A stretch of 34,537 nt of DNA from Alphaproteobacteria bacterium (GTDB lineage Bacteria > Pseudomonadota > Alphaproteobacteria > Micropepsales > Micropepsaceae): positions 1 through 34,537 of the forward strand of contig JAHFQC010000059.1 in NCBI GenBank assembly GCA_023259375.1. The letters are read 5' to 3'. Within the stretch, counting starts at the first letter, position 1; each line of letters begins with the position of its first letter. Positions 14,407-30,481 of the stretch are shown here, piece after piece. The notes beneath the pieces are model-generated. The model worked only from the letters and a program-made list of their open reading frames with translations. It was not told where the DNA came from and did not search any database. Position numbers and translations under genes: made by a program.

Positions 14407-14435
14407 CCACATGTGGGTACATTTACCTTATGTGG
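14407..14435. promoter_or_regulatory. CCACATGTGG palindrome with ATGTGG repeat upstream of podJ-like gene
   Basis: A perfect 10-bp palindrome CCACATGTGG (14407-14416) is followed by a second ATGTGG half-site at 14430-14435, 27-55 bp before the chosen start at 14462. This is operator-like spacing. No CtrA box (TTAA-N7-TTAA) is seen in the gap. Confidence 0.3.
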
Positions 14436-14461
14436 GGGGAAGAACCGCTACGAGAGACGAA

Positions 14462-16942
14462 ATGCGGCCCGATTTGCCATGGAGTGTCGCGGGAATTGCT
14501 ACCGAGGCTCGTGAAGCCGCGAGAGCGGCTGCGCGTCGGGAAGGTCTTTCTGTGGGCGAATGGCTCACGCGTCGCATAGTTTCGGAACTCTCGGATATGA
14601 GTGAACCTCGCAGCCAGTGGACCTACCGAATCGAGCCCCGGCCACAGCCGGAACGGCAGCGAATTCAATCGGATGAGATGCTGGAGCGGGTCTCTCGCAG
14701 CGAAATCGAAACCGCCGAAGTCTATCGCCGCATCGAAGACCAACTGCGCGGCATGGCCCGCCGCCTTGACGCCTCGGAACGCTCCCAGAGCGAAAGCAAC
14801 CGGGTGATGAGCAAGGCCGCGGTCGAGATGAACATCGCCGCCCGCGAACAGTCCCAGGCTTTCGAACAACTCGGCGCCCATGTCTCCGACATCGCCGACC
14901 GGCTCGATCGAGTCGAAGGCCGCGAAGCGGGCGACGGCCTCCGGGAGGCCGTCAAAGCGCTGCACCAGGGTCTTTCCCGCCTCGCCGACCAGATCACCGA
15001 AACGGCGAACCAGTCGGCCAACCAGATTTCCAGCCTCGCCGACAACCTCGAAACCGTCGCCGGCCGCGTCGGGCAGGCACGCCAGGACGCCATGGCGGTC
15101 AACCAGGCGCTGGAAAGCCGCCTCAACGCCATCGACGAGCGCGTCCGCGGCGTCGAAACCGCCAGCCAAGCCCAAGCCGGATCGATCGACCGCGCCCTTA
15201 ATGCCGTCGAGGACCTGAAACAGGCGCCGTCGCCGATGGAAGCCATCCATCAGCTCGAAGGGCGCCTCGAAGACAGCGTGCGCCGGCTCGAAGAACACAA
15301 GCCCGATCCCGCTCTCGACCGCCGCCTCAGCGGCATCGAGCGTAACGTGGCGGACCTTGCCGACCGCGTCGACAACCGCGACGACACCGCCAAGACGCTC
15401 GGCGACGCACTGCACCAACTGATGGCCCGGATGGAAGGGCTGGAAACCGCCCAGCGCGATGCTGCGGCCGAACTGCGCCGCGCCGTCATCGCGGCCGCCA
15501 AACACGTGGAACCGCCACCTGCTGTGGTGCCGCCGCCAGCGCCCGAGCCGCCGCCGGTCGTAACTCCGCCGGTCGCGCCACCGCCTGCCGCCACGCCGCC
15601 ATTGGCTGCCGCTTTCGAGCCGCCGCCGTTTGCCGTCGAAGCGCCGCCGTTCGTCGAGCCTGCCGCCGCGGCCGTCCCGCCGTTTGCTGCGCCGTCGTCC
15701 GTCGCGCCGTTTGCAGCGCCGCCCGCCGAGGCATTCGAGCTGCCGCCCGATCCCGGCCTTGCTCCGGTACCCGGTCTGACGGATGAGACTCCGGCCGCGG
15801 AATCCTATCTTGCAGCAGCCCGCCGTTCAGCGCGCGAAGCCGCCGAGCAGGAAAACGAGCGCAGCGCGACCCTCGGGGCTCTGCGCTGGGGTTCGGCCAA
15901 GAGCGACGAGACTGACGCGCCCAAGAAGAAGTCGAACCCGCTGCTGGTCGGCCTTTTGGGACTGATCATCATCGTCGTGGCAGCTGCTGCATTCCTGCAT
16001 TGGCGCGCGGGGAACAACGCCGCACAGCCGGCTGTCGCCACGACAACCGCCGTCGCACCGAAAGCCACGCCGAAACCGGCCCTGCACCAGAGCGCCGTCG
16101 ACGAACCGCTGCCGCCGACGCCAGAAACGGCCGCCAAAGCGCCGGCCACTAACGTTCCTGCAGCGAACGCGCCCGCAGTCAAAACGGCAGCGGCACCGGC
16201 CGCCAATACTCCAGCCAATGCGCAGCGCCCTGCCGGTGTGCAAATTGCCGCCGTGCCGCCGAAAGCCTCGCAAGCCGCCGCTCCGCAGCAGCAGCCGGCT
16301 GCGGCCCGTCCGGTCGCGCCGCTCGATCGCCTGACCCAGGCCGCCAACAGCGGCAATGCCCGCGCCCAGCTCATCGTCGGCCTCAAATACGTCGATGGCG
16401 ACGGCGTTCCGTCCAACCCGACCGAAGCCGCCAAATGGCTGATCAAGGCCGCCGATGCCGGCGAGCCGGTGGCGCAATACCGTCTCGGCGGGCTCTATGA
16501 ACGCGGCACTGGCGTCGCCGCCGATCCGGTCAAGGCCGTCCGTCTTTATCTCGCTGCCGCCAATCAGGGCAGCCGCAAGGCGATGCACAATCTCGCCGTC
16601 GCCTATGCCGAAGGCACCGGCGTGAAGAAGGATTATGCCGAAGCTTCGCGCTGGTTCCTCAAGGCCGCCAATCTCGGCCTCAAGGACAGCCAGTTCAATC
16701 TCGCCGTGCTGTACGAACGCGGACTTGGCGTGCCCCAGAACCTCGTCGATGCCTACAAATGGTATGCGATCGCAGCATCCCAGGGCGACAACGAATCCAG
16801 AAACCGCATGAACGCCATCGTCGGTCAGCTCGACAACGAGGCCCGCGCCGCGGCTCAGCATGCCGCCGATAGTTTCCGCGCAGCCCCGCTCAACGCCCGG
16901 GCCAATGTTCCCCCGACGCTGGGTGACGTGACGCGCGGCTGA
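14462..16942 (+). CDS. PodJ-like polar organizer: coiled coil, TM helix, Sel1 repeats
   Basis: An 826-aa protein with the layout of alphaproteobacterial PodJ/PodJL localization factors. The start MRPDLPWSVAGIATEAREAARAAARREGLSVGEWLTRRI is the PodJL N-terminal signature. Residues about 65-330 are coiled coil with heptad-like Ala/Leu/Arg, about 340-440 are a Pro/Ala-rich linker with repeated PPF units, residues 492-514 are one transmembrane helix (VGLLGLIIIVVAAAAF) and about 620-800 contain four Sel1-type repeats in the periplasm (for example YRLGGLYERGTGV). PodJ marks the new pole and recruits polar proteins. It stops after the Sel1 array, without the C-terminal peptidoglycan-binding domain found in Caulobacter PodJ. 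ATG 14462 is chosen over 14411 because it begins the conserved motif. Confidence 0.85.
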   Translation: MRPDLPWSVAGIATEAREAARAAARREGLSVGEWLTRRIVSELSDMSEPRSQWTYRIEPRPQPERQRIQSDEMLERVSRSEIETAEVYRRIEDQLRGMARRLDASERSQSESNRVMSKAAVEMNIAAREQSQAFEQLGAHVSDIADRLDRVEGREAGDGLREAVKALHQGLSRLADQITETANQSANQISSLADNLETVAGRVGQARQDAMAVNQALESRLNAIDERVRGVETASQAQAGSIDRALNAVEDLKQAPSPMEAIHQLEGRLEDSVRRLEEHKPDPALDRRLSGIERNVADLADRVDNRDDTAKTLGDALHQLMARMEGLETAQRDAAAELRRAVIAAAKHVEPPPAVVPPPAPEPPPVVTPPVAPPPAATPPLAAAFEPPPFAVEAPPFVEPAAAAVPPFAAPSSVAPFAAPPAEAFELPPDPGLAPVPGLTDETPAAESYLAAARRSAREAAEQENERSATLGALRWGSAKSDETDAPKKKSNPLLVGLLGLIIIVVAAAAFLHWRAGNNAAQPAVATTTAVAPKATPKPALHQSAVDEPLPPTPETAAKAPATNVPAANAPAVKTAAAPAANTPANAQRPAGVQIAAVPPKASQAAAPQQQPAAARPVAPLDRLTQAANSGNARAQLIVGLKYVDGDGVPSNPTEAAKWLIKAADAGEPVAQYRLGGLYERGTGVAADPVKAVRLYLAAANQGSRKAMHNLAVAYAEGTGVKKDYAEASRWFLKAANLGLKDSQFNLAVLYERGLGVPQNLVDAYKWYAIAASQGDNESRNRMNAIVGQLDNEARAAAQHAADSFRAAPLNARANVPPTLGDVTRG

Positions 16943-23577: not shown

Positions 23578-25032
23578 GTGACAAATCGACGGGATTTTCT
23601 CACAAGTTCGGTGGGAATCATGGGAGCCGGACTGATGGCCGCAACCGGAGCAGAAGCGGGAAAAGCGAAGCATTCCACGGGATTGGCCGCAAAACCTGCC
23701 ACCACCGGGGCGTCGTTTCCGAAGGATTTCTTGTGGGGAACTGCCACCGCCTCCTACCAGATCGAAGGCGTCTGGAAGGAAGACGGCAAAGGCGAGTCGA
23801 TCTGGGACCGCTTTACCCATACGGCCGGCAAGATCCGCGGCGGCGACACCGGCGACGTTGCTTGTGATTCGTACCATCGTTACGCCGAAGACATCGCGAT
23901 CATGAAGCGGCTGCATATGAAGAGCTGCCGCTTCTCGGTCGCGTGGCCGCGTATTCTTCCCGACGGCACCGGCACGGTGAACCAGAAAGGGCTCGATTTC
24001 TACAAGCGGTATGTCGACACCATGCTGGCCGCCGGCATCCGCCCGTCCTGCACGCTCTATCATTGGGACCTGCCGCAAACCCTGCAGGACAAAGGCGGCT
24101 GGCCCAATCGCGACATGGCCGGCTGGTTCTCCGATTATGCCACCATCGTCACCAAAGCGCTCGGCGACCGCGTCAAGACGTTCGCGATCTTCAACGAACC
24201 CTACGTCTTCTGTTTGTGCGGCTACGGCGTCGGTGTACATGCGCCCGGCATCGCCGACTTCGGCCAATACCTGAAGGCCGCGCACGTCGCCAATCTTGCC
24301 CAGGGCGATGCCTACCGCGCCATGCGAGCGATCTCACCCAAGGCCGAGATCGGCGGCGCTTACAATATGTCTCCCGCGGTGCCCGCCACGGATTCGCCCG
24401 AGGACCGCGCGGCGGCGGATAAGATGCACGCGGCCAACAACATCTTCTTCATCGCGCCGGCCCTGACCGGGGCCTACCCGAAGGAATTCGCCCCGCTCGA
24501 CGCCATGGACTTCCGCCCCGGAGACGAAACCCGCGTCCGCGCCGCGCTCGACTGGATCGGCATCAATTACTATTTCCGCATGAAGGTCCGCGCCGACGCG
24601 ACCGAAAAGAACATGGGCTATCGCGCCGACATTCCCCACGAAGCGCCGCTGACCCATCTCGGCTGGGAAGTCTGGCCGCAGGGCCTCTACGACATCGTCA
24701 CCCGCATCGGCCGCGACTGGCATCTGCCGATCGAGATCACCGAGAACGGATGTTCTTATGCCGATCCTCCAGGCGTGGACGGCACCGTTAAGGACGACCG
24801 GCGGACCGCCTACTTCCGCGGGCATCTGACCGCCCTTTCCCGCGCCATCCAGGACGGGGCACCCGTGCGCGGCTATCATGCCTGGAGCCTTTTGGACAAT
24901 TTCGAGTGGGGCGAGGGCTATAGCCAGCGGTTCGGCCTCGTCTGGGTCGATTTCCGTAGCGGGAAGCGGATCATCAAGGATTCCGGGCATTGGTACGGCC
25001 AAGTCGCCGCTGCTAACGCCGTGATCGACTGA
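23578..25032 (+). CDS. Tat-exported GH1 beta-glucosidase
   Basis: A 484-aa glycoside hydrolase family 1 enzyme that hydrolyses beta-glucosides by a retaining mechanism. The acid/base is Glu207 in FAIFNEP and the nucleophile is Glu389 in IEITENG; FLWGTATASYQIEG near the start and SLLDNFEW near the end are family signatures. The N-terminus has a twin-arginine signal (TNRRDFLTSSVGIMGAG, then ATGAEA) so it is exported folded to the periplasm. The start is GTG 23578, preceded by a strong GGGAGG Shine-Dalgarno; the earlier in-frame ATG at 23353 is antisense to DUF1810 and was rejected. It appears monocistronic; a GCCGCCCGGGCGGC palindrome follows the stop. Confidence 0.95.
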   Translation: MTNRRDFLTSSVGIMGAGLMAATGAEAGKAKHSTGLAAKPATTGASFPKDFLWGTATASYQIEGVWKEDGKGESIWDRFTHTAGKIRGGDTGDVACDSYHRYAEDIAIMKRLHMKSCRFSVAWPRILPDGTGTVNQKGLDFYKRYVDTMLAAGIRPSCTLYHWDLPQTLQDKGGWPNRDMAGWFSDYATIVTKALGDRVKTFAIFNEPYVFCLCGYGVGVHAPGIADFGQYLKAAHVANLAQGDAYRAMRAISPKAEIGGAYNMSPAVPATDSPEDRAAADKMHAANNIFFIAPALTGAYPKEFAPLDAMDFRPGDETRVRAALDWIGINYYFRMKVRADATEKNMGYRADIPHEAPLTHLGWEVWPQGLYDIVTRIGRDWHLPIEITENGCSYADPPGVDGTVKDDRRTAYFRGHLTALSRAIQDGAPVRGYHAWSLLDNFEWGEGYSQRFGLVWVDFRSGKRIIKDSGHWYGQVAAANAVID

Positions 25033-25048
25033 CGGAGCGGTGGAAAAC

Positions 25049-25116
25049 GCCGCCCGGGCGGCAAAGTCCAGGGTTTGCGCGAGTTTGGTGAGCCGAATCG
25101 CACTATTGCGGTTCGG
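25049..25116. promoter_or_regulatory. Palindromes between the GH1 gene and the phosphate operon
   Basis: A loop-free palindrome GCCGCCCGGGCGGC (25049-25062) sits 16 bases after the GH1 stop and may mark the end of its transcript. CCGAATCGCA (25093-25102) pairs with TGCGGTTCGG (25107-25116) with one T-G wobble and a 4-nt loop, 90 bp before the DUF47 start. No Pho box is apparent in this 173-bp gap. Confidence 0.35.
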
Positions 25117-25205
25117 CCGCGGGGGACTATGACGGTTCCGCGACCAAACGCGCTTTTGCCCGGCCGGGCCAATCTGGCAGGTGTACGGGCGACATTACGG
25201 GATGA

Positions 25206-25856
25206 ATGAGCATGTTCAGCTGGTTCCAGAACCTGATGCCGCAGGAGAACCGTTTCTTCGACCTGTTCAATCACCACGCCCACACCATCGTCGACGGCGC
25301 CGAGGCGCTCCGCTCCCTCTTGCACAGCGACACGGAAGTGAAGGCCGCCTGCAAGAAGGTGTTCGAGTTCGAAACCCAGGCCGACGTGATCACCCAGGAC
25401 GTGCTGCTTCTGACCCGCCGCTCCTTCATCACCCCGTTCGACCGCAGCGACATCAAATCCCTGATCACCTCGCTCGACGACTCCATCGACCAGATGAAGA
25501 AGACGGCGAAGTCGATCCTTCTGTTTGAAGTGGAAACGTTCGAGCCGCACATGGCCCAGATGGGCGACGTCATCGTCGATGCCGCCAAGCTGACGGTCGA
25601 GGCGGTCGCCCAGCTCCAGACGCTGCGCCAGAACTCGGTGAAGGTGAACGGCGTCACCGAAGCGATCATCCGGCTCGAGGAAAGCGCCGACGAGCTCAAC
25701 AATCAGGGCGTCAAGGCGCTGTTCGCCAAGTACCGGAACGGCAACGCCATGGACTACATCATCGGCAACGACATTTATAACCACCTCGAGCGGGTGATGG
25801 ACCGTTTCGAGGATGTCGCCAACGGCATTTCGGGCATCGCCATCGAACAATCCTAA
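25206..25856 (+). CDS. DUF47 (PhoU-like) phosphate-transport regulator
   Basis: A 216-aa all-helical protein of the DUF47 family, relatives of PhoU that work with Pit-type phosphate carriers. FFDLFNHHAHTIVDGAEAL near the start and ETQADVITQDVLLLTRRSFITPFDRSDIKSLITSLDD in the middle are the family signature; DEVMDRFEDVANGI-type helix near the end is here LERVMDRFEDVANGI. It is 12 nt upstream of the Pit gene, the usual arrangement, and probably controls that transporter from the cytoplasmic side. ATG 25206 is used; ATG 25212 is an alternative in the same frame. Confidence 0.94.
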   Translation: MSMFSWFQNLMPQENRFFDLFNHHAHTIVDGAEALRSLLHSDTEVKAACKKVFEFETQADVITQDVLLLTRRSFITPFDRSDIKSLITSLDDSIDQMKKTAKSILLFEVETFEPHMAQMGDVIVDAAKLTVEAVAQLQTLRQNSVKVNGVTEAIIRLEESADELNNQGVKALFAKYRNGNAMDYIIGNDIYNHLERVMDRFEDVANGISGIAIEQS

Positions 25857-25868
25857 CGGAGCCCGCTG

Positions 25869-26861
25869 GTGCCCGACTTAACTATTCTCATCGCCCTCGT
25901 CGCGGTCGCGCTGCTGTTCGACTTCATGAACGGTATGAACGACGCCGCCAATTCGATCGCCACCATCGTCTCCACCCGCGTGCTGTCGCCGCGCTATGCG
26001 GTGTTCTGGGCGGCGTTCTTCAACTTCATCGCCTTCATGGTGTTCGGTCAGGCGGTCGCCAAGACCATGGGCTCGGGCATCGTCGATGCCTCGGTCATCA
26101 CCGACCAGGTGATTTTCGGCGCTCTGGTCGGCGCCATCACCTGGCAGGTCTTCACCTGGTGGGCCGGCATTCCGTCGTCCTCGACCCATGCCATGGTCGG
26201 CGGTCTGGTCGGCTCAGCCGTCACCCATGCCGGCTCCGGCGTCATTCTCTGGCACGGACTGGGCCGCACCATCCTCGCCATTTTCCTGTCGCCGACCATC
26301 GGCATGGTGCTGGCGATCCTGTTGATGCTGGGCGCCGCCTGGATCTTCCGCAAGGCCTTGCCGACGCGGGTGGATTCGCTGTTTCGCAAACTGCAGTTCG
26401 TATCCGCCTCGCTCTATTCGCTGGGCCACGGCGGCAATGACGCCCAGAAAACCATGGGCATCATCGCAGTCCTTCTTTACGCCCACGGACAGGTCCAGGG
26501 CGGTTTCCACATCCCGCTTTGGGTGGTCCTGGCCTGCCAAACCGCAATGGCCGCTGGAACCCTGAGCGGCGGCTGGCGTATCGTGAAGACCATGGGATCG
26601 CGAATTACGCACCTTTCGCCCTACCAGGGCGTCTGCGCCGAAACCGCCGGCTCGATGATGCTGTTCCTGGCGACCAGCCTCGGCATCCCGGTTTCGACCA
26701 CCCACACCATAACCGGTGCCATCGTCGGCGTCGGCGCCGCCAAGCGGGCGTCCGCAGTGCGCTGGAACGTGGCCAAGGACATCGTGACGGCCTGGATCAT
26801 CACCATTCCCGCCGCGGCCTGCGTCGGGGCGCTGGCCTACAAGCTGTTCGGACTGTTCTGA
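25869..26861 (+). CDS. Low-affinity inorganic phosphate transporter, Pit family
   Basis: A 330-aa inner-membrane carrier with about ten helices. The two Pit signatures are present: FDFMNGMNDAANSIATIVSTRVLSP near residue 20 and YSLGHGGNDAQKTMGI near residue 185, plus the repeat elements PSSSTHAMVGGLVG and PVSTTHTITGAIVG. Pit imports phosphate with protons, as neutral complexes with divalent metals such as Mg, Zn or Co. The start is GTG 25869 with an AACGGAG Shine-Dalgarno. It overlaps the Nudix gene by one base (TGATG) and lies between the regulator and two further genes in what looks like one transcript. Confidence 0.95.
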   Translation: MPDLTILIALVAVALLFDFMNGMNDAANSIATIVSTRVLSPRYAVFWAAFFNFIAFMVFGQAVAKTMGSGIVDASVITDQVIFGALVGAITWQVFTWWAGIPSSSTHAMVGGLVGSAVTHAGSGVILWHGLGRTILAIFLSPTIGMVLAILLMLGAAWIFRKALPTRVDSLFRKLQFVSASLYSLGHGGNDAQKTMGIIAVLLYAHGQVQGGFHIPLWVVLACQTAMAAGTLSGGWRIVKTMGSRITHLSPYQGVCAETAGSMMLFLATSLGIPVSTTHTITGAIVGVGAAKRASAVRWNVAKDIVTAWIITIPAAACVGALAYKLFGLF

Positions 26862-27355
26862 TGGCCCGCGGCCAGGGCACCCGCAAGCTCACCGGCACGC
26901 AGTACGGAGCCCTTCCCTGGCGGCTCAGGAACGACGAAGTCCAGGTTCTGCTCGTCACCTCGCGGCAATCGCGGCGCTGGATCCTGCCCAAGGGCTGGCC
27001 CATGGACGGTCTCAAACCGGCGCAAGTCGCCGCCCGCGAAGCCGAAGAGGAAGCCGGCGTCACCGGGACCATCGACAAGACCGCCATCGGCCGCTACCGC
27101 TACATGAAGATGCTGCGCGACGGCGTCGAACTGCCGTGCCGGGTGGAAGTGTTCGCCCTCAAGGTGACCGACGAAAGCCCGGACTGGGACGAAATGGACG
27201 CCCGTACGCGGCGCTGGTGTTCGGTGGCGGACGCGGCCGGGGCGGTGGTGGAACCCGAGCTCAAACTCGTGATCCGCCGGTTCGCGGTTCGGGTGGCGCA
27301 GCTCAAGCGGCGCAAGCAGGCAATGGTGGTGAGTCATGGTCGCCGTACGGCTTGA
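26861..27355 (+). CDS. Nudix hydrolase
   Basis: A 164-aa enzyme that cleaves nucleoside diphosphates linked to other moieties. The fold starts YGALPWRLRNDEVQVLLVTSR, then WILPKGWPM and the Nudix box near residues 45-67: GWPMDGLKPAQVAAREAEEEAGV. The catalytic REAEEEAG part is intact, but the first Glu of the consensus box is Leu here, as in a group of alphaproteobacterial relatives with LPKGWP. The group resembles diphosphoinositol-polyphosphate and Ap4A-type hydrolases, so a link to phosphate metabolism fits its place after pit, but the substrate is inferred. ATG 26861 overlaps the Pit stop by one base; the 3' end overlaps the next gene by 20 bases. Confidence 0.92.
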   Translation: MARGQGTRKLTGTQYGALPWRLRNDEVQVLLVTSRQSRRWILPKGWPMDGLKPAQVAAREAEEEAGVTGTIDKTAIGRYRYMKMLRDGVELPCRVEVFALKVTDESPDWDEMDARTRRWCSVADAAGAVVEPELKLVIRRFAVRVAQLKRRKQAMVVSHGRRTA

Positions 27356-28034
27356 GGATGAAGCATTGGCGTTCGCGGCCGCGCAGCTCGATGCGGCGGG
27401 CGGCGGCATTGCGGGCGAACTGCACCAGGAAGCGTTGTGGGAGCCGGTGGTGTTCGTGCCGGACTTCATCGATCCCCTGGCCTTGCCGGATCTCGAGGCC
27501 GGTCATGTCGCATCGCCCGAGGGCTCGGCCGCAGAACTGGCGGGCTATCTGTTGTTTCTCCAGAAGCGCAATCCCGCCCTCAAAAGCGTGATCTTCGACG
27601 ATCCCTGGGCCAGCCCCGGCGACCTCGATTACGCCGGACCGCCGCCCGACGAACTGCTCACCCTGCAAGGACATGTATCCTACCTCTACGATCTCGCCGC
27701 AATGTCGCCCGATCTGGTGTTGGACTACCGCTCGATCGCCGTGAGCTTCCTCAAGATCGTATATGTCAGCGAACTGTCGCCGGCCGAGATTCGTGCGTTG
27801 GCCGAAGAGGAGCCGGACGATGTGTTTCATCGCCTCGCCCACAGCGTGCGCTATGTCGCCATCAACGCCTATGACGACGAATCCTGGCTAATTCTGCGCC
27901 ACGAACAGAGCGAACACGACAAAAAACACTGCCAGTGCGGTCACGACGACTGCGATTGCGACGGGGATTGCGACTGCGACGGAGAGTGTGACGGCGAGTG
28001 TGACGGGCCCGAGCACCACGCCAACGACGACTGA
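27336..28034 (+). CDS. Unknown protein with Cys/Asp-rich repeat tail
   Basis: A 232-aa protein with no family I recognise. Residues 1-188 are an ordinary acidic, Leu/Ala/Pro-rich globular region without any Cys (motifs such as FVPDFIDPLALPDLEAG and HVSYLYDLAAMSPDLVLDYRSIA). Residues 189-232 are a metal-ligand tail: 8 Cys (199, 201, 206, 208, 212, 214, 218, 222), 12 Asp, 5 Glu and 6 His, arranged as CDCDG, DCDCDG, ECDG, ECDG. Synonymous variation between units argues for selection on the protein and not for recent slippage. The ATG at 27336 lies inside the Nudix gene (20-nt overlap, GGTGGTGAG upstream), so translation is coupled. It sits between Nudix and a cation antiporter in the phosphate operon. 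A divalent-metal-binding role is inference. Confidence 0.85.
   Translation: MVAVRLEDEALAFAAAQLDAAGGGIAGELHQEALWEPVVFVPDFIDPLALPDLEAGHVASPEGSAAELAGYLLFLQKRNPALKSVIFDDPWASPGDLDYAGPPPDELLTLQGHVSYLYDLAAMSPDLVLDYRSIAVSFLKIVYVSELSPAEIRALAEEEPDDVFHRLAHSVRYVAINAYDDESWLILRHEQSEHDKKHCQCGHDDCDCDGDCDCDGECDGECDGPEHHANDD
27948..28010 (+). repeat. Short degenerate coding repeats encoding C-D-x units
   Basis: Inside the unknown gene, units of the form tgcgaytgcgac and gagtgtgacgg recur through 27948-28010 with mixed third bases (gat/gac, tgc/tgt, ggg/gga/ggc). The variation is mostly synonymous. Confidence 0.6.
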
Positions 28035-28087
28035 TTCGACACCTTCGGGTTGCTTCTTGCCGCCGCGGACCGCATGCTGCGGACCAG

Positions 28088-29884
28088 ATGGCAGCCACGT
28101 TCGATATCTCCGGCTATAGCGACGCCCTGGTGCTGCTCGGCACCGCGGCGGTGATCGTGCCGCTGGTGCGCAAGGCGGGCATCAGCCCCGTTCTCGGCTA
28201 TCTCGGCGCCGGAGCGATCCTCGGACCGCTGGCGCTCGGCTCGTTCATCAAGGACTTCCCGATCCTTTACTGGTTCACGGTGGTGGACGAGAGCCATGTG
28301 TCCGGCTTTGCCGAACTCGGCATCGTGTTCCTTCTCTTCATGATCGGCCTCGAGCTGAGTTTCGCCCGCCTCAAGGCGATGCGCCGGCTGGTGCTGGGGC
28401 TCGGCGGATTGCAGGTGCTGGTGACCTCGACGGTCATTGCGGCCATCGCGTCGCTGGCCGGACTTTCCTCCAACGCCGCCATCGTGATCGGCGCGAGCGT
28501 CTCGCTGTCTTCGACCGCGATCGTGCTCGAACTTCTGTCGCAGCAGAACCGGCTGTCTTCCACCATCGGCCGCGCCAGCTTCGCGGTCTTGCTGGCGCAA
28601 GACATCGCCGTGGTGCCGATCCTGATGTTCGTATCGATCACCGGCGGGCAATCCGACGGATCGGTGCTTGTCAGCCTGGTGCGCGCCCTGTTTCAGGCCG
28701 CCGCTGCCATTGCCCTCATCATCCTGATCGGCCGCCTCGCCATGCGCCGCCTGTTCCGCCTGGTCGGCTCGGCGCGGTCGAGCGAACTCTTCATCGCCGC
28801 CGTGCTGCTGGTCATTTTCGCGGCCGGTGTGATCGCCCATCAGGCCGGACTGTCGATGGCCCTCGGCGCCTTCGTCGCCGGCATCATGCTGGCGGAAACC
28901 GAATACGGCAAAGCCATCGAAGCCACCGTCGATCCGTTCAAGGGCCTCTTGCTCGGCATCTTCTTTTTCACCGTCGGCATGGCGATCGATTTCCGCGAAG
29001 TCTTCCGCGAGCCGCTCCTGCTGATCGCCTGCGTGGTGGGATTGATCGTCGTCAAGGCGGGGATTCTGACCCTGCTCGGACGGCTGTTTCATCTGCCCTG
29101 GTTCGCCGCGATCGAAACCGGTCTCCTCCTTGGTCCCGGCGGCGAATTCGCGTTCGTCGGCCTGGGGCTGGCCGCCAGCCTGCATATCGTCGATGCGCGC
29201 TTCTCCGGCTTCATTCTCGCCGCCATCGCCCTCACCATGGCGTTGACGCCGCTGCTGTCGGTCTTGGGGCGGCGCATCACGCGCAAACTGCGCGAGCAGG
29301 GCATCGGCGATCCCGCCCTGACCGCCAAGCCCCCCGGCGGCGAAGCGCATGCCATCCTGGTCGGCTACGGCCGCGTCGGACGGGTGGTCAGTTCGCTGTT
29401 CAAGGACTTGGGCGTTCCCTACATCGCCACCGATATCGATCCCGCGGTGGTGACACGCGCGCGCCGCGAAAACGATGAAGTCTATTTCGGCAATGCCGCC
29501 GATCCCGAATTCCTCCGCGTCTGCGGCGTGATGGAGGCGACCGGCATCGTCATCACCATCAATGCCCGCGAAACCATCGATGCCATCGTCGAGCAGGTGC
29601 GGGCGATGCGGCCCGACCTCCTGATCGTGTCGCGCGCCAAGGATGCAGTCCACGCCAGCCATCTCTACCAGATGGGCGCGACCGACGCGGTACCGGAGAC
29701 CATCGAATCCTCGCTGCAATTATCGGAAGCGGCGCTGGTCGGCCTCGGCGTTCCGGTCGGGCTTGCCATCGCCAAGATCCATGGCCAGCGCGACGAGTTC
29801 CGCAGCGCCTTGCAGCAGGCCGCCCGCGAAGCTGGCCGCGCCGAAAGCTACGCCATCCGCCGCAAGCCTCGTACCGCCACGTAA
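28088..29884 (+). CDS. CPA2 cation:proton antiporter, KefB-type
   Basis: A 598-aa inner-membrane antiporter of the CPA2 family with 12-13 helices and a C-terminal RCK/TrkA-N domain. LLAQDIAVVPILMFVSI is the conserved ion-path helix with its Asp; ELGIVFLLFMIGLELSFARL and GPGGEFAFVGLGLA are further family signatures. The cytoplasmic nucleotide-binding domain starts at about residue 418 with ILVGYGRVGRVVSSL (GxGxxG). Such proteins exchange K+ (or another cation) for H+. It follows the Cys-rich-tail gene by 53 nt; cotranscription with the phosphate genes is plausible but not certain. No KefF- or KefG-like partner is adjacent. Confidence 0.93.
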   Translation: MAATFDISGYSDALVLLGTAAVIVPLVRKAGISPVLGYLGAGAILGPLALGSFIKDFPILYWFTVVDESHVSGFAELGIVFLLFMIGLELSFARLKAMRRLVLGLGGLQVLVTSTVIAAIASLAGLSSNAAIVIGASVSLSSTAIVLELLSQQNRLSSTIGRASFAVLLAQDIAVVPILMFVSITGGQSDGSVLVSLVRALFQAAAAIALIILIGRLAMRRLFRLVGSARSSELFIAAVLLVIFAAGVIAHQAGLSMALGAFVAGIMLAETEYGKAIEATVDPFKGLLLGIFFFTVGMAIDFREVFREPLLLIACVVGLIVVKAGILTLLGRLFHLPWFAAIETGLLLGPGGEFAFVGLGLAASLHIVDARFSGFILAAIALTMALTPLLSVLGRRITRKLREQGIGDPALTAKPPGGEAHAILVGYGRVGRVVSSLFKDLGVPYIATDIDPAVVTRARRENDEVYFGNAADPEFLRVCGVMEATGIVITINARETIDAIVEQVRAMRPDLLIVSRAKDAVHASHLYQMGATDAVPETIESSLQLSEAALVGLGVPVGLAIAKIHGQRDEFRSALQQAAREAGRAESYAIRRKPRTAT

Positions 29885-29932
29885 CGGAACACGCTTGAGG
29901 TCCCGCGCGTTCACCGCCCAACGGAGAACGCC

Positions 29933-30481
29933 ATGAAAGCCATTGCCCCACTTCTTTGCTTGACGCTGCTGGCCGGCGCTGCGCTGGCGCAGAGCGACGA
30001 GCAACGCACCGATCAGCTCAATCAGGCGCAAAGCGCGCAAGGCACGGATGCCGATCAGCGCGATGTGCAATACCGGCAGCAACAGCAGCTCTATCAACAA
30101 CAGCAACTGCAATACCAGGCGCAGAAGCAGGCTTACGACGCGCAGGCTTCACGCTATCTGGCCGCGCGCGACCGCTACGCGGCGGAACGGGCGCGCTACC
30201 GTCGCGGCGATTGGCCAAAACGCTACGAGAAGCTTGCTTTTGTCGACAGCGACCAGTTGATGGGCGCCAAGGTAGAAACCTATGCCGGTACGCCGGTCGG
30301 TCATGTGATCGAGCTGGCGCGCGTCGGCGGCCGCATCACCGCAGTGCGGGTCGCCTTCGACGATACGCCGCGTCAGGTTTGGATCGACCGCGGCGATCTC
30401 AAATTCGATACCGAGGATTCCATCCTGGTGACGGACCTCGCCCATCACGACCTCGTTTCGATGGCCGCCGAACAATATTGA
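29933..30481 (+). CDS. Exported Gln-rich protein with PRC-barrel-like C-terminus
   Basis: A 182-aa protein. Signal peptide MKAIAPLLCLTLLAGAALA is followed by an acidic, Gln-rich stretch (QYRQQQQLYQQQQLQYQAQK) and an Arg/Ala helix (YLAARDRYAAERARYRRGDW), then a beta-rich end, LMGAKVETYAGTPVGHVIELARVGGRITAVRVAFDD, which looks like a PRC-barrel domain. The mature protein should be periplasmic. A CGGAGA Shine-Dalgarno precedes the ATG. The function is unknown. Confidence 0.8.
   Translation: MKAIAPLLCLTLLAGAALAQSDEQRTDQLNQAQSAQGTDADQRDVQYRQQQQLYQQQQLQYQAQKQAYDAQASRYLAARDRYAAERARYRRGDWPKRYEKLAFVDSDQLMGAKVETYAGTPVGHVIELARVGGRITAVRVAFDDTPRQVWIDRGDLKFDTEDSILVTDLAHHDLVSMAAEQY

Follow-up and report, generated by a model that had tools for sequence, protein, structure and literature searches.

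An orphan gene at the end of a DUF47-Pit-Nudix operon in a relative of Rhizomicrobium electricum and its lineage-specific Cys-rich tail

The window, that is the whole stretch of DNA that was analysed, is 34,537 nucleotides long and is one contig of the 4.67 Mb assembly of a relative of Rhizomicrobium electricum, a member of a soil-dwelling genus. On its plus strand a gene for a DUF47/PhoU_div protein (25206-25856; Pfam PF01865, E 4.9e-43) is followed by a gene for a Pit/PHO4 phosphate transporter with a GTG start (25869-26861; PF01384, E 1.6e-95) and by a Nudix hydrolase gene (26861-27355; PF00293, E 8e-10), the ATG of which shares one base with the stop codon of Pit (TGATG). The gene under study is the next open reading frame on the same strand (27336-28034). 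It encodes 232 amino acids from an ATG start codon that lies inside the Nudix gene, the overlap being 20 nt. A gene for a KefB-type monovalent cation:proton antiporter, also on the plus strand, begins 53 nt downstream (28088-29884; Pfam Na_H_Exchanger E 1.8e-52, TrkA_N E 8e-20). An earlier note on this DNA had described the gene as coupled to a Nudix gene that follows DUF47 and Pit; the identities and order of these neighbours are borne out by the Pfam assignments.

A scan of 25000-30000 for promoters and terminators gave no promoter-like site and two terminator-like sites, which are on the opposite strand and show no excess over shuffled sequences. The Nudix box consensus has Glu as the first residue after G-x5; the box encoded in 26861-27355 (GWPMDGLKPAQVAAREAEEEAGV) has Leu at this position and the relative in genome G042 has Arg. 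After KefB there is a gene for a Gln-rich protein of 182 amino acids (29933-30481), probably secreted as judged by reading and matching no Pfam family at E <= 1e-5, which has counterparts in R. electricum (L010) and in genome G053 (L014). Elsewhere in the window, a frame of 843 amino acids (14411-16942) contains Sel1 repeats (PF08238, E 3.2e-37), the best of them near the C-terminus.

The 232-amino-acid protein can be divided into a body, residues 1-191 (27336-27908, plus strand), and a tail, residues 192-232 (27909-28031, plus strand). All Cys residues of the protein, at positions 199, 201, 206, 208, 212, 214, 218 and 222, are found in a block within the tail (residues 199-222; 27930-28001, plus strand). 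In this block two adjacent DCDCDG units (205-210 and 211-216) are followed by ECDG ECDG (to 224), and the underlying DNA contains short repeats. Residue counts confirmed the eight Cys in 199-222 and the 12 Asp in the final 44 residues that had been reported for the protein; the Cys-free stretch, previously given as 1-188, is slightly longer and covers 1-198. The tail has eight Cys in CxC and CxxxC spacing, 12 Asp and five His per 42 residues. His is present ahead of the Cys block or in its first few residues (189, 194, 198 and 203) and after it (227 and 228), which agrees with the earlier description of flanks with His on both sides, for which "His-rich" is a generous term.

The window has 174 stop-to-stop frames that reach 100 amino acids or more, and no other of these has seven or more Cys within 24 residues. 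If Cys is assumed to make up 0.9% of residues, the binomial probability is about 3e-11. The Cys cluster is therefore not explained by chance composition. The pI of the protein is 4.2. Its highest 19-residue hydropathy mean is 1.31, the usual threshold for membrane segments being 1.6, and no signal peptide is apparent when the sequence is judged by eye.

Models were built by AlphaFold2 with six sequences. The full protein was predicted with moderate confidence (mean pLDDT 73) to have a domain of mixed alpha/beta type, made up of seven helices and seven strands, and the body alone gave a mean pLDDT of 69. The pLDDT is below 50 over residues 194-232, with values of 36-48 in the Cys block, and the tail is predicted to be disordered from residue 194 onward. 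With these query models of moderate confidence, Foldseek found no credible relative in the PDB for the full model (best E 0.29, query TM-score 0.17) or for the body model (best E 0.57, query TM-score 0.16), nor among viral models (best E 0.024, query TM-score 0.14). Searches of the body for known domains in Pfam, NCBIfam, PHROGs and PADLOC gave only noise, as did sequence searches of the PDB with the single sequence and with a profile (best profile match E 0.066). When the bodies of all six known copies were compared with Pfam at E <= 1, the best matches had E values of 0.11 to 0.22, occurred in one copy each and did not include FKBP.

Relatives of the body are restricted to a few genomes. A search with the body sequence matched six of 100 genomes, the window's own included. 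A profile built from these six copies matched six of 96 genomes of the order, all six belonging to one genus, of which 69 genomes were sampled. The same profile matched only the window's own genome among 385 genomes of the class, an even draw with few members of the genus. In the phylum three of 398 genomes were matched, the window's own and two borderline cases (G522 and G662); the latter two matches (E 0.003 and 0.006) cover 43-44 residues within long frames and were dropped as chance. No relatives of the body were found in viral contigs or in plasmids. A profile search for hidden copies in G042, G027, G048 and G019, a set without a positive genome, gave nothing at E <= 10, and the profile does find the six copies. 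The closest homologue is that of R. electricum with 89% identity to the window's body, while the body in genome G007 is 83% identical. Between the window and R. electricum the 191 codons of the body differ by 54 silent and 24 replacement changes, corresponding to a dS of 0.547 and a dN of 0.057. Judged by these substitutions the body is under purifying selection, and the same values show that the frame 27336-28034 is coding. The body thus represents an orphan family of one small group within one genus.

The position of the gene is highly conserved. DUF47, Pit and Nudix are directly upstream in all six copies, as would be expected of an operon component, and the 20-nt overlap with Nudix is present in five of them including the window, the exception being a 3-nt gap in G053. 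Since all six copies are found behind DUF47-Pit-Nudix, the operon link is real and the membership of the body in the operon is well supported; the association is stronger than the earlier note could know. The operon itself is far more common than the gene. A Nudix relative at E <= 1e-20 is present in 52 of the 69 genomes of the genus. Thirty Nudix loci, not every match of the genus search, were fetched, and 27 of them have Pit beside Nudix. DUF47 is also present in 26 of these 27 and the remaining one is cut by a contig end. The gene does not occur wherever DUF47-Pit-Nudix occurs, as 21 of the 27 Pit-Nudix loci examined in the genus are without it, a few of these being cut downstream by contig ends. 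In a small group, therefore, a common operon has been extended at its end by the orphan gene.

The gene is also followed by KefB in five of the six copies, and it could be this K+/H+ antiporter, not Pit, that the protein serves; the Cys tail would then gate the antiporter by sensing thiols, redox state or electrophiles. In the window 53 nt separate the gene from KefB, and the gene was never seen in a genome without this KefB. A close KefB orthologue (E <= 1e-150) is present in seven of the 69 genomes of the genus, namely the six gene carriers and G019; the G019 contig ends inside KefB and the region upstream of it, where the gene would lie, is outside view. This match in presence is tighter than that with Nudix, although co-occurrence may also be the result of common descent. 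In G007, however, the gene stays behind Nudix while KefB is on another contig. The overlap is moreover with the Nudix gene and not with KefB, and neither Pfam nor Foldseek gave a credible flavodoxin-type match of the KefF/KefG kind. A role as partner of KefB is considered unlikely.

Unlike the body, the tail is lineage-specific and not a trait of the family. It was found only in the window and in R. electricum, with lengths of 41 and 37 residues, whereas the other four copies stop two residues past a conserved RHE. The R. electricum tail has seven Cys, and its repeat number and linker differ from those of the window. The difference between the two tails amounts to one six-residue unit and two residues close to the C-terminus, and the HHANDD end is identical. 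It had been suggested that homologues of the N-terminal part be checked for both the Pit neighbourhood and the Cys tail, and that tailless homologues in unrelated contexts would speak against a metal-handling role. The neighbourhood is kept in six of six copies and the tail in only two; the four tailless homologues do exist, and none of the six is found in an unrelated context.

Searches for the tail as a shared motif gave no further cases. CDG[DE]CDG was matched in three of the 69 genomes of the genus, by the two tailed genes and by a frame in G117 that is opposite another open frame and was taken as chance. CDCDG[DE]CD was matched in one of 385 genomes of the class, the window's own, R. electricum being outside this draw.

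The closest tailless relative is G007. In the window the gene is followed by a stretch (approximately 28040-28080) that in G007 precedes KefB, with a score of 60 against a shuffled maximum of 27. A rearrangement breakpoint therefore lies downstream of the G007 body and ahead of this stretch, at the site that a tail would occupy. The absence of the tail in G007 is thus perhaps due to rearrangement. The tail may have been gained before the G007 split and then lost in the rearrangement, or it may have been gained later. A tail remnant was looked for on either side of the G007 break, but the scores of tail DNA did not exceed those of shuffled sequence. The KefB gene of G007 (L062, G007:C12, 109739-111526) is separated from the operon, the old intergenic stretch having moved along with it, and its place behind the orphan gene is taken by a frame on the other strand which by reading resembles an aldo/keto reductase.

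An unrooted tree of 26 Pit sequences groups the six gene carriers with G042 (support 0.775), and places the gene-less G042 beside G007 and the tailed pair (support 0.957). G042 (L027, G042:C130) has no KefB match at E <= 1e-150 and no copy of the gene was found in it. Because the Pit tree nests G042 among the gene carriers, the gene was probably lost in G042, unless the tree misplaces this genome.

The DNA of the tail contains short tandem repeats with units of 6, 12 and 18 nt. The first seven tail codons look unconstrained from a comparison of the window with R. electricum (pN 0.67, pS 0.64). In the Cys segment, over 28 aligned codons, pN is 0.057 and pS 0.375. The only replacements in this segment are Q/H, H/N and, twice, E/D, four in all, and in the preferred alignment Cys is kept at each aligned Cys position. 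The repeats were aligned by hand, and with three such alignments and two transition biases random substitution gave P values of 0.0005 to 0.23 for the tail; retention of the aligned Cys alone gave 0.07 to 0.18. Selection was rejected as proven, the outcome being dependent on the alignment, and the pattern of substitutions is suggestive of selection on the tail.

These data bear on the possibility of a near-neutral origin, in which a DNA repeat of the GAC-TGC-GAY-GG type has recently expanded at the 3' end, in frame after the last codon of the body, to give a tail with no selected metal function. Such an expansion would agree with the presence of the tail in only two of six copies, the detectable repeats, the unequal copy number of repeats in the window and R. 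electricum, the unconstrained look of the first seven codons and the lack of robustness in the selection tests. On the other hand, the repeat units vary at silent sites (GAC/GAT, TGC/TGT, GGG/GGA/GGC) while the residues are kept. The changes in the preferred alignment are mild and spare all aligned Cys, and the HHANDD end is the same in both tailed species. An origin of this kind, with no selected metal function, is possible, if doubtful.

Two other functions of the tail were considered. The two DxDxDG units in the window tail (205-210 and 211-216), of which one is present in R. electricum, have the form of the start of the calcium loops of EF-hands and thrombospondin type 3 repeats, and the tail might use these loops to bind Ca2+ or another hard ion, instead of using Cys to bind soft metals. 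It might in this way sense calcium imported as calcium phosphate. The Glu at position 12 of the EF-hand is absent, however, and Cys between the Asp residues points to a softer metal. The tail alone has no EF-hand, dockerin or TSP3 match in Pfam at E 10, a search in which the HMMER filters drop most weak matches. Calcium binding is regarded as very unlikely. A redox switch like that of Hsp33, with oxidation sensed by a region that holds Zn through Cys or forms disulfides, would be in line with the clustering of Cys towards the C-terminus and with a probable cytosolic location of the protein. There is, however, no Cys pair conserved in the family, four of six copies lacking the block altogether, and the two Hsp33 chains obtained with Foldseek (E 0.89 and 1.7) are noise. 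We give this explanation very little credence.

The preferred reading, with a probability of about 0.4, is that the protein is a cytosolic, lineage-restricted accessory of the operon which in one sublineage carries a SlyD-like disordered metal-binding tail, acting as a local buffer for Pit-borne metal. The 232-amino-acid protein belongs to the DUF47-Pit-Nudix phosphate operon by its place, and its translation would be coupled to that of the Nudix gene. The ancestral operon function of the family would reside in the folded body (1-191), which at a guess may interact with Pit/DUF47 or the Nudix enzyme as a partner or regulate one of them. In the sublineage of the two tailed species the reduced Cys thiolates of the tail, together with Asp carboxylates and His, could act as ligands for divalent ions of soft or borderline character (Zn, Cd, Cu, Ni) and so buffer metal that enters with phosphate through Pit. 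Its composition and the parallel with SlyD make it plausible that the tail binds metal in the two copies that have it.

Pit carriers import phosphate jointly with divalent metal, and we know of nothing established on a cytosolic receiver of the metal that they import. PitA is described as a metal-phosphate importer in an excerpt of PMC11112998, and a Deinococcus radiodurans mutant in a pitA homologue contained less manganese and phosphate according to PMC13188870; a cytosolic metal buffer next to Pit is sensible for these reasons. Four of the six copies occupy the same operon position without a tail, so that metal binding by Cys is not a requirement of the family. The proposal of the earlier note, a metal-handling add-on to phosphate uptake, is accordingly upheld in its operon position (six of six copies) and weakened as a purpose for the whole protein, which is not supported in view of the four relatives without the Cys block. 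Points against the preferred reading are the P values that are not robust, the 21 of 27 Pit-Nudix loci without the gene and the lack of a family or fold match for the body. A more far-reaching version, in which the body is a new Pit-associated cytosolic family that encounters incoming metal, either in complex with phosphate or after its release, and the tail makes it a dedicated metallochaperone or buffer for co-imported metal, appears quite unlikely.

In the literature searched, by titles and the openings of abstracts, no work was found on the 232-amino-acid protein, on a Cys-tailed partner of Pit or on a metal-handling module of Pit. The locus presents a tail of a known kind on a narrowly distributed orphan protein. 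If the tail binds metal, the tailed and tailless close relatives form a natural comparison with and without it at a Pit operon. If it is neutral, it is an example of metallothionein-like tails arising by short in-frame repeats.

Among known systems, the S. meliloti orfA-pit operon is a case of the alphaproteobacterial DUF47(OrfA)-Pit arrangement. The present operon resembles it in having DUF47 directly before Pit, and differs in having Nudix after Pit, as in 27 of the 30 Nudix loci fetched from the genus, six of which also carry the orphan gene. The flavodoxin-like quinone reductase fold of KefF/KefG accessory proteins was not found in the protein with Pfam, or with Foldseek on models of moderate confidence. 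With the calcium-loop proteins of the EF-hand and TSP3 types the tail shares only the DxDxDG string, with no model match. Bacterial metallothioneins have CxC spacing and a high density of Cys, as has the tail, but the Cys-rich part is here limited to the last 34 residues of the protein. No metallothionein model was matched in Pfam by the whole protein (E <= 1) or by the tail alone (E <= 10), the only weak match being TrAA12 at 0.021 and 0.88, respectively, far below its cut-off.

UreE likewise has a C-terminal extension that some homologues do without, and in K. aerogenes the His tail of UreE is dispensable for urease maturation (excerpt of PMC7055735). The UreE tail differs in being rich in His, and the body has no UreE domain in Pfam. 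The protein differs from SlyD in lacking the FKBP/PPIase domain, since no Pfam family matches the body, in a tail that is rich in Asp and Cys with few His, and in its genomic setting of phosphate import. As presented in the excerpt of PMC7055735, as many as seven Ni(II) are bound by the unstructured tail of E. coli SlyD, which contains His, Cys, Asp and Glu, and the tail varies among SlyDs and is missing in that of T. thermophilus. A disordered C-terminal tail with Cys, His and acidic residues on a folded domain, variable or missing in homologues, is also what the 232-amino-acid protein has, as judged by composition and by a pLDDT below 50 over 194-232, in two of its six copies.
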